Position numbers and translations under genes: made by a program. From Candidatus Coatesiibacteriota bacterium (lineage in GTDB: Bacteria; RBG-13-66-14; B26-G2; JAUVZD01), in the NCBI GenBank assembly GCA_030602715.1, contig JAUVZD010000001.1, positions 124,001 through 188,000 of the forward strand: a stretch of 64,000 nucleotides of DNA, written 5' to 3'. Within the stretch, counting starts at the first letter, position 1, and every line of letters starts with the position of its first letter. Shown here piece by piece: positions 42,299-47,139 of this stretch. The notes beneath the pieces are model-generated. The model did no database searches and was not told where the DNA came from. It saw nothing but the letters and a program-made list of their open reading frames with translations.

Positions 42299-42937
42299 CT
42301 ATTCACCGGTTGATATTTTCCTTTTAAAGCTGAATCTATTCTCCTCACCTCGCACAAGTCTCTTTATGTTTGACCGATGAGCGATTATCACCAATATTGT
42401 CAGTAGAATTGTGAACCCCAGAAGCCAAAAATTCAATCCGCCTTCAAAGTAGTAGCTATACAGAGAGGAAAAGAGGAGGAAGCTTGAGGTGGCGATCATT
42501 GAGGAAAGGGAGATATATCGCCATATGATGAAGACGATAGCAAACAACATAATAGAGGCTAATGCAGACCAGGGTGAGAGCATCAGACAGGCTCCGAAAG
42601 CCACTGCCACGCCTTTTCCGCCCTTGAACAGAAGATATACGGGGAATATATGTCCAATAATTACCATGACTGCGGATACTATCTCCGCCAGGTTGATGTC
42701 GCCGGTGATGAAGAAGATTGGCAGAATGGCTACGGAGAGCGAGCCCTTGAGCACATCCATGATGTAGGCGATGGTGCCGGGTAGGGGTCCCGCCACCCGA
42801 TAGAGGTTGGTGGAACCGATATTTCCCGAGCCGTGCTTACGTATATCCACCCGACAGAATATGAGCCCTATCAAGAATGAGAAGGGGATAGCCCCAAATA
42901 GATAGGCGATTAGGGCAATAATTATGAAGTTACTCAT
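42299..42937 (-). CDS. plsY: Glycerol-3-phosphate acyltransferase PlsY
   Basis: A 212-aa integral membrane enzyme that transfers the acyl group of acyl-phosphate to glycerol 3-phosphate. Hydrophobic segments cover most of the chain, and the three conserved loops are visible: GAIPFSFLIGL, HGSGNIGSTNLYRV and GGKGVAVAFGA. The C-terminus is basic. Its start overlaps the der stop. GpsA, PlsY and PlsC (at 48109) together make phosphatidic acid. Confidence 0.95.
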   Translation of the reverse strand: MSNFIIIALIAYLFGAIPFSFLIGLIFCRVDIRKHGSGNIGSTNLYRVAGPLPGTIAYIMDVLKGSLSVAILPIFFITGDINLAEIVSAVMVIIGHIFPVYLLFKGGKGVAVAFGACLMLSPWSALASIMLFAIVFIIWRYISLSSMIATSSFLLFSSLYSYYFEGGLNFWLLGFTILLTILVIIAHRSNIKRLVRGEENRFSFKRKISTGE

Positions 42938-44261
42938 CTTTCTTTCGCCCCCTGAAGTGCATTCTTATGGGAGTACCGATAAAATCAAACTGCTTGCGGA
43001 TTCTATTTTCCAGAAATCTCTGGAAGGAGAAATGTGCCGTTTTGGGGTCGTTGACGAAAAAGGTGAAGGTAGGCGGTTTGATGTTCGTCTGGGAACAATA
43101 ATAAATCTTCAGTTCCTTTCCTCGTAGCGCAAATCCGGCGAACTGGCCGATAAAACGGTTTAGCTGGGGGGTGGGGATCTTACTCTTGCGCTGTTCTTGT
43201 ACTTTGACAGCCACCTGGAGGATATTTCCAACCCGCTGACCGCTCTTTGCCGAGGTGAATACGATCGGTGCATAACTGAGGAACTTCAGGCGATGGTATA
43301 TCTCACGTTCATACTGCACCGTGCTCATGGTGTCCTTCTCCACCAGATCCCACTTGTTGACGCAGATGACACAGCCCTTACCCTCCTGCTCTATATAACC
43401 GGCGATCTTGGTGTCCTGGGAGATTATCAGCTGTTGGGCATCAATGACCAATATCGCCACATCACACCGTCTGACGACGGCTAACGCCCCCTTCACTGAG
43501 TCCCGCTCCACCCCTTCCTTATCCTTTGCCACCTTCTTCTTCTTGCGCAGTCCGGCGGTATCCACCAAGAGCAGTCTCTGACCGTGCCACTTGATAACTT
43601 CATCTATTGGGTCTCGAGTGGTTCCCGGGGCTTCGTGCACCACCGCCCGTTCAGAACCGAGGATATAATTTAATAGCGATGACTTTCCCACATTCGGGCG
43701 TCCGACGATGGCGATTGCGGTGATTTTCTCCTTCTCATCCCTCTCCTCAACTAACTTTGGTTGGGGGAGCATATCCGCCATCGCCCGCCGTAGTTCCCCT
43801 GTTCCACTACGATTCAGGGCGGATATGGGCATCATGGGCGAGAATCCCAGGCTATAGAATTCATCCGCAAGATATAGTTGCCTGGAGGTGTCTATCTTGT
43901 TGACCACCAATATAGTGGGTATGTTCTGTTTGCGAGTCCACTCCGCCAGCTCCTTATCGGCGCCGGTCAGCCCCTCCTTTCCATCGGTGATGAGCAAAAG
44001 AAGATCCCCTTCAGCGGCGGCTACCTCTAACTGTTTCTGAGCCGCCTCCAATACCCCTTGACCATCCGCCATCCAGCCCCCCACATCCACCATTGTAGCT
44101 TCTCCATCTCCCAGCCTGAAGGTGCCATACAGTCGGTCGCGGGTGGTGTGAGGTGTGGGGCTCACAATACTTTTCTTGCGAGTGAAATGGTTGAAGATGG
44201 TGGATTTGCCCACATTGGGACGACCAATAAGGACTACAATGGGATTTTTGGTGGGGTTCAT
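42930..44261 (-). CDS. der: Ribosome-assembly GTPase Der (EngA)
   Basis: A 443-aa double GTPase acting in 50S maturation. First G domain: GRPNVGKSTIFNH, then DVGGWM (G3; the usual DTxG is DVGG) and NKID. Second G domain: GRPNVGKSSLLNYI, DTAGLRKKKK and NKWDLVEK. The C-terminal KH-like domain ends GTPIRMHFRGRKK. ATG 44261 is chosen because it starts the conserved part; a TTG at 44306 would read through a hairpin. No SD is obvious. It overlaps plsY by 8 bp. Confidence 0.95.
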   Translation of the reverse strand: MNPTKNPIVVLIGRPNVGKSTIFNHFTRKKSIVSPTPHTTRDRLYGTFRLGDGEATMVDVGGWMADGQGVLEAAQKQLEVAAAEGDLLLLITDGKEGLTGADKELAEWTRKQNIPTILVVNKIDTSRQLYLADEFYSLGFSPMMPISALNRSGTGELRRAMADMLPQPKLVEERDEKEKITAIAIVGRPNVGKSSLLNYILGSERAVVHEAPGTTRDPIDEVIKWHGQRLLLVDTAGLRKKKKVAKDKEGVERDSVKGALAVVRRCDVAILVIDAQQLIISQDTKIAGYIEQEGKGCVICVNKWDLVEKDTMSTVQYEREIYHRLKFLSYAPIVFTSAKSGQRVGNILQVAVKVQEQRKSKIPTPQLNRFIGQFAGFALRGKELKIYYCSQTNIKPPTFTFFVNDPKTAHFSFQRFLENRIRKQFDFIGTPIRMHFRGRKKDE

Positions 44262-44270
44262 GGCGAAAAA

Positions 44271-44294
44271 TTTTGGGCGGGGATGGCACCGCCC
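44271..44294 (-). terminator. Hairpin between rpsA and der
   Basis: GGGCGG / CCGCCC arms (44275-44280 with 44289-44294) on an 8-nt loop, followed on the minus strand by AAAATTTTT. It could be a terminator or attenuator between rpsA and der; its GGATGGCACC centre also resembles the palindromic repeat unit in HU. Confidence 0.5.
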
Positions 44295-44346
44295 AGATCT
44301 TATCAATTTATGCCTTGGTATCGTTGTTAAAGCGGCATCCTAAGAG

Positions 44347-47139
44347 CTATTTATCCTCGCTCTCATCTTCATCTTTTTCTTGAGGCGGCTCCTCTTTCTC
44401 CGCCTCCCCTTCAGCTTCTTTCTCTTCGGATTTCTCTGCTTCTACATCTTCAGCTTTGGGTTTCTCAGCCTTATCTTCCTTAACCACAGGTTTCTCAGCT
44501 TTAAATGGCTCCTCTTTCTCTGGCGAGGGCTCTTCGGCTTTAGCCGGTTCCTCCTCCTCAGCGTCGGGCTTCTCCGTCTCAGCCAGCTCTTCTTTCTCTG
44601 GTGCGGGTTCTTCGGTTTTAGCCGGCTCCTCCTTCTCTGGCGAGGCCTCTTCGGTTTTAGCCGGCTCCTCCTTCTCTGGCGAGGGCTCTTCGGTTTTAGC
44701 CGGTTCCTCCTCCTCAGTGTCGGGCTTCTCCGTCTCAGCCGGCTCCTCTTTCTCTGGCGAGGGCTCTTCGGCTTTAGCCGGTTCCTCCTCCTCAGCGTCG
44801 GGCTTCTCCTTCTTAGCCGGCTCCTCCTCCTCAGCGTCGGGCTTCTCCGTCTCAGCCGGTTCCTCTTTCTCGGGCGAGGGCTCTTCGGTTTTAGCCGGTT
44901 CCTCTTTCTCGGGCGAGGGCTCTTCGGTTTTAGCCGGCTCCTCTTTCTCTGGCGAGGGCTCTTCAGCTTTAGCCGGCTCCTCTTTCTCAGCGTCGGGCTC
45001 TTCGGCTTTAGCCGGTTCCTCCTCCTCAGCGTCGGGCTTCTCCGTCTCAGCCGGTTCCTCTTTCTCTGGCGAAGGTTCTTCGGCTTTAGCCAGCTCCTCT
45101 TTCTCTGGCGAGGGCTCTTCGGCTTTAGCCGGTTCCTCCTCCTCAGCGTCGGGCTCCTCAGCTTTAGCCGGTTCCTCCTCCTCAGCGTCGGGCTTCTCCG
45201 TCTCAGCCGGTTCCTCCTTCTCAGCGTCGGGCTTCTCCGTCTCAGCTGGCTCTTCCTCCTCAGCGTCGGTGTCCTCTGCTTTTACCTCCTCCTTCACGGC
45301 TTCGTCCGAAATTTCCTCCGCTACGGGTGCGGCCTCTTCCTGCTGTGGCTCTTCCTCCATTAGAAGTAAATCGATATCCTCACCCTTCTCCTTCTTCTCC
45401 CGTTCAAATTCCCGGATGGAGAGGCTAATCTTACGCTCTTCGGTGGAGATAGAGATTATCTTCAGGTTTATCCGTTGGTTGACCTTTAAAACCTCGGCAA
45501 TATTATCTATGTGCCGTTCTTCTATCTCCGAGACATGGAGCAGACCCTCTATGCCGAAGGGAATGCGGACGATAGCTCCATAGTTTGCTATCTTGACCAC
45601 ATCTCCCTCCACATTCACACCCACCTTCAGATGCTCTTGGACTCTGCTCCAGGGGTCCTCGCTCAACTGCTTCATCCCCAGAGAGACCCGACGGTTTATC
45701 TTGTCTATTCCCAAAACCACCACTTCTACGAGCTGCCCTTTTTTGAATATCTCGGCGGGGTTCTGAACTCTGCTGGTCCAGGAGATATCCGAGATGTGCA
45801 CCAAGCCGTCTATTCCCTCCTCCACCTCCACAAAGATTCCAAAATCGGTGATGTTGCGAACCTTACCCTCGAACCGCTTTCCGACCGGATATCTCTCCTC
45901 CAATGAATCCCAGGGATTGGGCTCCAATTGGCGTAGACCCAGGGAGATTCGTTCATTCTCTTTATCAATGTTGAGAATCATGGCTTCAACGGTGTCGCCT
46001 ATCTCCAATATGTCATTGGGGTGCTTGATACGCTTGGTCCAGGACATCTCCGAGATATGGATTAAACCCTCTATGCCCTTTTCCAGCTCCATAAAAGCCC
46101 CGTAGTCGGTTATGCTGACGATCTTCCCTCTCGCTACATCCCCCACATTAAACTTCTCTCCTATCTTATCCCAGGGATGGGGTGTCAGTTGCTTCAATCC
46201 CAGGGATACCCTTTCCCTCTCATGGTCAAAGCTGAGCACCTTGACTTCAATCTTGTCCCCAATGTTGACCACCTCTGAGGGGTGATTGATTCGTCCCCAG
46301 GATAGGTCGGTTAAGTGGAGTAAACCATCAAGCCCCCCTATGTCAACGAAGGCACCGAAATCGGTGATGTTCTTGACCTCCCCCTCAACCACCTGCCCTT
46401 CTTTTAAGGTCTCCACCAACTTCTTCTTCATCTCTTCCCGGGCTTCGGCAAGGATGACCTTGTGGGAGAGGACGATATTGCGGCGGCGCTTGTTCAGCTT
46501 AACCACCTTGAAGTCCATGCTCTTACCGATATGTTGTTCCAGATCTTTGGTGGGGCGCAGAGACACCTGGCTTGCAGGCAGAAACGCCCGCACCCCGATG
46601 TCCACGGCGAGTCCGCCTTTGACCACATCCAGTATCTTGCCGGTGATTACCTGGTCGTTCTCGTAGTAATCCTTTATCTGCTCCCACTTACCGAAGAAAT
46701 CCGCCTTCTCCTTGGAAAGCACCACCACACCGTCCTGGTCCTCCTTTTTGTCCAGGTATACTTCCACCTCCTGCCCTACCTCTAAAGCGGATGGGTCGGG
46801 AAATTCATTGATGTTGATGCTTCCCTCGGACTTGTAGCCCACATCAACAAGGACTTCATCCTCGGTTACAGCCACAATGAAGCCTTTTACAATCTCTCCC
46901 TCCTCTATATCCTTGAGGACATTCTCGTAGTCTGCCATCATAGCTGCGAAGTCCTCCTCGTCCCCTTCGGGCTTTGGGGAGGTCCGGGATGGGTCTAAAT
47001 CATCGGCAGATGGCGGGCTCTTCTCCTCCTGTTCTTTCTCATCTGATCGGTTAATAGACACCTGGTTAGCAGTGTTGCCAGCACTCACCTCCTCTTTGCT
47101 TTCTTCTACTTCTCTTTGCTTCTTTTCTTTTTCAACCAT
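44347..47139 (-). CDS. rpsA: 30S ribosomal protein S1 with giant acidic repeat tail
   Basis: A 930-aa protein. Six S1 OB-fold domains span about residues 75-590: the first two are divergent (ribosome-binding type), and domains 3-5 are the classical RNA-binding ones (TDFGAFVDIGGLDGLLHL, TDYGAFMELEKGIEGLIHIS, TDFGIFVEVEEGIDGLVHIS). S1 binds mRNA leaders and aids initiation. The remaining ~340 residues are disordered and strongly acidic, with twenty 13-residue units of the type EEPAKAEEPSPEK or EEPAETEKPDAEE. The N-terminal ~60 residues are also acidic. E. coli S1 is about 560 aa, so the tail is a large addition. A consensus promoter and a leader hairpin lie upstream. Confidence 0.93.
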   Translation of the reverse strand: MVEKEKKQREVEESKEEVSAGNTANQVSINRSDEKEQEEKSPPSADDLDPSRTSPKPEGDEEDFAAMMADYENVLKDIEEGEIVKGFIVAVTEDEVLVDVGYKSEGSININEFPDPSALEVGQEVEVYLDKKEDQDGVVVLSKEKADFFGKWEQIKDYYENDQVITGKILDVVKGGLAVDIGVRAFLPASQVSLRPTKDLEQHIGKSMDFKVVKLNKRRRNIVLSHKVILAEAREEMKKKLVETLKEGQVVEGEVKNITDFGAFVDIGGLDGLLHLTDLSWGRINHPSEVVNIGDKIEVKVLSFDHERERVSLGLKQLTPHPWDKIGEKFNVGDVARGKIVSITDYGAFMELEKGIEGLIHISEMSWTKRIKHPNDILEIGDTVEAMILNIDKENERISLGLRQLEPNPWDSLEERYPVGKRFEGKVRNITDFGIFVEVEEGIDGLVHISDISWTSRVQNPAEIFKKGQLVEVVVLGIDKINRRVSLGMKQLSEDPWSRVQEHLKVGVNVEGDVVKIANYGAIVRIPFGIEGLLHVSEIEERHIDNIAEVLKVNQRINLKIISISTEERKISLSIREFEREKKEKGEDIDLLLMEEEPQQEEAAPVAEEISDEAVKEEVKAEDTDAEEEEPAETEKPDAEKEEPAETEKPDAEEEEPAKAEEPDAEEEEPAKAEEPSPEKEELAKAEEPSPEKEEPAETEKPDAEEEEPAKAEEPDAEKEEPAKAEEPSPEKEEPAKTEEPSPEKEEPAKTEEPSPEKEEPAETEKPDAEEEEPAKKEKPDAEEEEPAKAEEPSPEKEEPAETEKPDTEEEEPAKTEEPSPEKEEPAKTEEASPEKEEPAKTEEPAPEKEELAETEKPDAEEEEPAKAEEPSPEKEEPFKAEKPVVKEDKAEKPKAEDVEAEKSEEKEAEGEAEKEEPPQEKDEDESEDK
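44476..45255 (-). repeat. 39-bp minisatellite, about 20 tandem units
   Basis: Twenty tandem 39-bp units (19 full plus one degenerate) encode 13-residue repeats in the S1 tail. Two main unit types alternate irregularly, consistent with duplication by unequal recombination or slippage. Frame is preserved throughout. Confidence 0.9.

Follow-up and report, generated by a model that had tools for sequence, protein, structure and literature searches.

A repeat-built acidic tail on ribosomal protein bS1 of a Candidatus Coatesiibacteriota bacterium, a possible charge-based disordered bristle

INTRODUCTION

In many bacteria, the ribosome binds mRNA mainly through protein S1, whose C-terminus usually receives little attention. 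Here we examined rpsA, the S1 gene located in a 64,000-nt stretch (the window) of contig JAUVZD010000001.1 from a Candidatus Coatesiibacteriota bacterium, whose product ends in an acidic, repeat-built tail of 344 residues. The closest described systems are of three types. A survey of C-terminal low-complexity regions (LCRs) of ribosomal proteins names S2, S16, L25, S3, S6, L3, L10, L17, L19, L21, and L31; S1 is not listed among its proteins with 20 or more cases, and an A+E content of at least 70% holds for about half of the bacterial ribosomal LCRs and is not defining (PMC6821194). The acidic C-terminal domain (CTD) of the RNA-binding protein Hfq acts as a nucleic acid mimic that competes with non-specific RNA, and it also keeps DNA from aggregating (PMC5606850). 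For S1 itself, domain 6 of six-domain proteins was found to be the most disordered by one predictor (PMC6566611); acidic tails go unmentioned in the text of that survey. A search of the open-access literature, with most subscription papers lying outside it, returned no paper on acidic S1 tails.

The tail examined here shares with the ribosomal LCRs its C-terminal position on a ribosomal protein, its low complexity, and its richness in A and E. It belongs with them as a C-terminal ribosomal LCR at an A+E share of 54% (131 E and 48 A of 330 residues), below 70%, and differs in its E/P/A/K composition, its length of 344 residues, and its minisatellite units. A/E-rich C-terminal LCRs are known on many ribosomal proteins. 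Our favored explanation, to which we give a probability of about 0.4, is that the tail is a charge-based disordered bristle of selected composition that changes length by in-frame duplication and limits the non-specific RNA contacts of S1.

RESULTS

Organization of the window S1

The rpsA gene and the parts of its product are as follows, with coordinates referring to the window and residues numbered from the N-terminus of S1.

44347 to 47139, minus strand: rpsA, ribosomal protein bS1, 930 residues (open reading frame [ORF], Pfam, NCBIfam, and closest solved structure)
46915 to 47139, minus strand: N-terminal extension, residues 1 to 75, acidic and mostly of low confidence in the model, with a helix at residues 62 to 75 ahead of domain 1 (composition and AlphaFold)
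45382 to 46914, minus strand: six S1/OB domains, residues 76 to 586, borders approximate (Pfam, structure match, and AlphaFold)
45256 to 45381, minus strand: helix end and acidic linker, residues 587 to 628 (sequence; AlphaFold helix at 576 to 592, then no structure)
44515 to 45255, minus strand: 19 uninterrupted units of exactly 39 bp/13 residues, two types plus mosaics, residues 629 to 875 (sequence and Tandem Repeats Finder [TRF])
44476 to 44514, minus strand: degenerate 20th unit, EEPFKAEKPVVKE, residues 876 to 888 (sequence)
44350 to 44475, minus strand: acidic end without repeats, residues 889 to 930, finishing in EKDEDESEDK (sequence)

The core is that of ribosomal protein bS1, with six S1 domains and a score above the curated cut-off. 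Pfam S1 matched six stretches (E = 1e-101), NCBIfam NF004952 (30S ribosomal protein S1) scored 756 bits (cut-off, 524), TIGR00717 scored 634 bits, and the best solved match was Escherichia coli bS1 (6h4n_y, E = 3.7e-143). The AlphaFold model consists of six OB domains followed by the helix at residues 576 to 592. This was the single full-length S1 match in the genome, the remaining matches being short S1-domain stretches in other frames. The protein shares with the E. coli type its six S1/OB domains, the helix before domain 1, and its family assignment (Pfam, NCBIfam, and PDB); it differs in length (930 versus 557 residues) by the addition of the repeat-built acidic tail. The first-pass annotation of this DNA, which had described an ordinary S1 core followed by some 340 further residues with about 20 units of 39 bp, is upheld on both counts: the 344 residues after the core comprise a linker of 42, the 19 exact units, the degenerate unit, and the acidic end of 42.

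The array is made up of two unit types, EEPAETEKPDAEE and EEPAKAEEPSPEK, and of mosaics between both (e.g., EEPAKAEEPDAEE), in agreement with the shuffling that had been proposed for it. Proline spacing within the 13-residue units is regular and kept, and the 19 units contain zero stops and zero frame breaks. TRF (score threshold 50) reported the array at periods of 39 (score 658), 117 (score 855), and 156 bp (score 972), the last of these, equal to four units, being the best. Since the longer periods scored highest and identical units were found far apart, duplication involved blocks of more than one unit; the "active expansion" of the array is inferred. Long plus-strand ORFs overlying the array (44380 to 45363 and 44456 to 45583) were interpreted as a side effect of the repeat period being a multiple of three and were rejected as genes.

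Charge and predicted disorder of the tail

The tail has 154 D/E versus 46 K/R among its 344 residues, corresponding to a net charge of about -108, a fraction of charged residues of 0.59, and a net charge per residue (NCPR) of -0.31, with 15% proline. An in-frame, polyanionic extension on a normal S1 was borne out, its disorder as a prediction. Residues 593 to 930 were modeled by AlphaFold with no secondary structure and a predicted local distance difference test score mostly of 34 to 54; beyond residue 592 the other rows of the input alignment were mostly gaps, and the prediction also rests on composition, which places the tail deep on the disordered side of a charge-hydropathy plot. Predicted disorder of the tail is thereby supported, and its radius of gyration is estimated at about 5 to 6 nm, as for an extended polyanion. 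Across 369 ORFs from a 400-kb portion of this contig, the tail ranks first both for the acidity of a 60-residue stretch and for the length of its low-complexity run (343 residues). A halophilic, salt-in acidic proteome was rejected as a source of this charge based on the 333 ORFs sampled, with a median pI of 5.55, 30% below 5, and 25% above 8. Outside the window, a 181-residue ORF of the same contig (L128:9312-9857; G000:C3:29312-29857), DUF1844-like by eye, also carries a long E/A/P/K-rich C-terminal tail, this one with a basic end.

Coding constraint within the array

Assembly of tandem repeats is error-prone, and we considered whether the tail may be an assembly or binning artefact. Exact repeats in the tail DNA extend to at most 69 bp, less than the length of a common short read, and the array sits inside a 438-kb contig; misassembly was rejected as unlikely on these grounds. 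The frame is open throughout and relatives bear tails of their own (see below), leaving only a remote chance of an artefact. No further copies of the minisatellite were detected elsewhere in the genome. Comparison of same-type units yielded 12 synonymous and 7 non-synonymous changes, where 24% synonymous would be expected (P = 2.8e-4), and only one of the seven amino acid variants altered charge compared with 52% expected (P = 0.048); both tests assume that distinct variants are independent, which homogenization among units may violate. This preference for synonymous and charge-neutral changes argues for a constrained coding sequence rather than an assembly error, and the tail thus appears to behave as a translated, charge-constrained sequence.

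Tails of relatives in the phylum

S1 was recovered from 12 of the 14 genomes sampled in the phylum, and 11 of the 12 genes encode an acidic C-terminal tail of about 107 to 344 residues. Long acidic tails were found in every S1 gene recovered from the rest of the class (five genes) and from the phylum's other family (five genes). Most of these tails are built of their own, unrelated repeats, with units of 35 residues in L004, 53 in L005, 28 in L003, and 24 in L007. The congeners L007 and L010 have cores that are 95% identical, with L007 longer by about 40 residues of repeat; the ratio of non-synonymous to synonymous substitution rates (dN/dS) of this pair was 0.11 for the core and 0.34 for the tail. 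Other same-genus pairs, where computable, gave 0.06 to 0.13 for the core and 0.24 to 0.28 for the tail, ratios that are rough as dS is high in several pairs. Together with the change in repeat blocks, these values indicate that the tail is under purifying selection, looser than that on the core, and that its length turns over. As a separate observation, the acidic repeat tail of the G004 S1 (L005:1459-3744) finishes in a strongly basic segment, KGKGRAKARGGKRKTEKE, at which its congeners differ.

Acidic S1 tails in other bacteria

A search of 386 genomes yielded 135 S1 genes with complete ends that were measured; as best matches to one query, these lean toward six-domain S1 and are not a random draw of bacteria. 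The median tail was 49 residues, 30 of the 135 proteins had tails of at least 100 residues, and the window tail was the longest. Among the 30 long tails, 26 were strongly acidic (NCPR below -0.15) and none was basic; 15 of these 26 are from outside the phylum. Acidity increased with tail length (rho -0.52). Mapped on a FastTree tree of S1 cores, the long-acidic state changed 16 times, at least 15 of them on well-supported branches (shuffles, 24.1), a count that cannot tell gains from losses. A tandem array was detected in 33 of the 57 tails of at least 60 residues, with a period divisible by three in 32 of the 33, and no obvious homology of units was seen between the arrays of different lineages. 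Based on these sequence comparisons, acidic S1 tails appear to have arisen many times independently in bacteria.

Examples of the arrays include (i) KKEEDSV in about 9 copies (L179; G246); (ii) a 12-residue ATEEVAADADVE-like unit in about 6 copies (L218; G338); (iii) a DEPVEEA-like unit (L017; G048); and (iv) a 6-residue unit in about 14 copies (L196; G373). The S1 proteins of named relatives (Syntrophobacteraceae, Myxococcota, and Verrucomicrobiota) have mostly short tails. A motif like [ST]xLG[DE]LL was observed directly past domain 6 in 33 of 216 S1 tails (shuffled mean 0.6, maximum 4), with carriers including L031-L041, L058, L065, L074, L090, L092, L097, L110, L147, L169, and L209. It is common to several groups, including Syntrophobacteraceae and Myxococcota, is absent from the window S1, and resembles a conserved helix or docking motif at the S1 C-terminus.

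Region downstream of rpsA

One further feature was noted next to the tail.

44274 to 44295, minus strand: terminator-like hairpin and T run between the S1 stop and the likely der ATG (44261), close to the stop; weak, as chance alone would be expected to produce sites of this kind in the region

Although the listed start of the der ORF (window 42930 to 44306) is a TTG at 44306, the hairpin at 44295 to 44274 makes the ATG at 44261 more likely.

DISCUSSION

The favored explanation holds that selection would keep the composition of the tail, namely its net charge and regular prolines, rather than its exact sequence, and that tail length would shift as 39-bp units, singly or in blocks of several, are duplicated in frame. 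Tethered next to the RNA-binding domains of S1, the disordered polyanion may repel or compete with loosely bound RNA; S1 would thereby release non-specific RNA and avoid aggregating or tangling mRNAs, and a longer array could have a stronger or farther-reaching effect. The one-sided charge of the tails argues that at least their composition is selected. The first-pass annotation had suggested that such a tail could affect RNA competition, phase separation, or ribosome hibernation. A bolder version, in which the independently grown minisatellite-coded tails are nucleic-acid mimics and evolution can quickly tune, through unit copy number, the tightness and selectivity of the ribosome's hold on mRNA, is doubtful. 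The nearest precedent is the acidic CTD of Hfq, with which the tail shares a C-terminal acidic and disordered (here predicted) extension on an RNA-binding core. The Hfq acidic tip acts on basic Sm residues; the window S1 differs in that its fold is unrelated and any basic target surface on it is putative. An indirect check of such competition between tail and core, by the charge of S1 cores, gave no support.

Several observations weigh against the favored explanation. Self-competition predicts more basic S1 cores in long-tail lineages, but these cores were slightly more acidic (median NCPR, -0.052 versus -0.032), a difference that was not significant under phylogenetic pairing; self-competition is thus possible and unsupported on core charge. 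Domain 2 is the sole clearly basic domain of the window S1 (+7). The count of acidic tails covers S1 alone among bacterial C-terminal tails. The first-pass annotation had named absence of the repeat from close relatives as grounds for doubt, and the outcome was divided: the only same-order relative (G001) has no tail and a short basic S1 end, SASKGGKNKRREK, whereas the five S1 genes from the rest of the class and the five from the other family are long-tailed. Frame loss was rejected as the cause in G001, in which a clean stop is followed by tRNA-Leu-like sequence. Finally, E. coli can grow without the last two domains of its S1 (PMC3858243), and the C-terminal end of S1 may simply tolerate additions.

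That last point leads to the chief rival, a strong one that we consider a serious possibility: a disordered C-terminal end that the protein can bear grows by slippage or unequal exchange, the tail itself is functionless, and selection purges only disrupted frames, stops, and any hydrophobic or basic sequence harmful to S1 or the ribosome. Such growth would fit the fast turnover of sequence and length between congeners, with a tail dN/dS roughly three times that of the core or more, the frequent gain or loss of tails on the tree, the tail-less G001, and the dispensable domains of E. coli S1. It fits less well with the one-sided charge (no basic tail among the 30), the climb of acidity with length, the retention of a tail in nearly all S1 genes of the phylum, and the cost of adding 344 residues to a normally abundant protein. 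An unlikely alternative is that the tail serves as a general acidic shield for solubility, spacing S1 and 30S particles in a crowded cell and leaving the RNA-binding surface untouched. The extended dimensions estimated for the polyanion and the slightly more acidic cores of long-tail lineages, as would follow from a general shift toward acidity, are consistent with a shield of this type, but the proteome sample lacks a strong acidic bias and so speaks against salt-in adaptation.

We regard as improbable that the units dock a basic partner (initiation factor, helicase, or nascent ribosomal protein) recruited to the 30S subunit, with copy number setting avidity. The regularity and proline spacing of the units are in its favor, as is the interaction role proposed for the C-terminal LCRs of ribosomal proteins (PMC6821194); yet units unrelated between lineages leave no shared motif, and G001 manages without a tail. 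Even less probable is translational self-control, where acidic runs and prolines slow or destabilize the ribosome and the array meters S1 synthesis. An EttA-type ABC-F was considered as a helper in translating acidic runs, and none scored above the family cut-off in the genome, an outcome in favor of this idea, although one of the encoded proteins is rich in acidic residues that follow one another. Against it, translation reaches the array only near the 3' end of the gene, once the S1 core is complete, and abortion there would merely shorten the tail.

Congeneric pairs of one genus with differing repeat blocks make the question of tail function directly testable. If the tail is functionless, it would be a clean case of the tolerance of a core ribosomal protein. 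If the charge-based bristle is true, the convergent, charge-constrained, in-frame growth of minisatellites would represent a natural experiment on acidic disordered tails tuning RNA binding.
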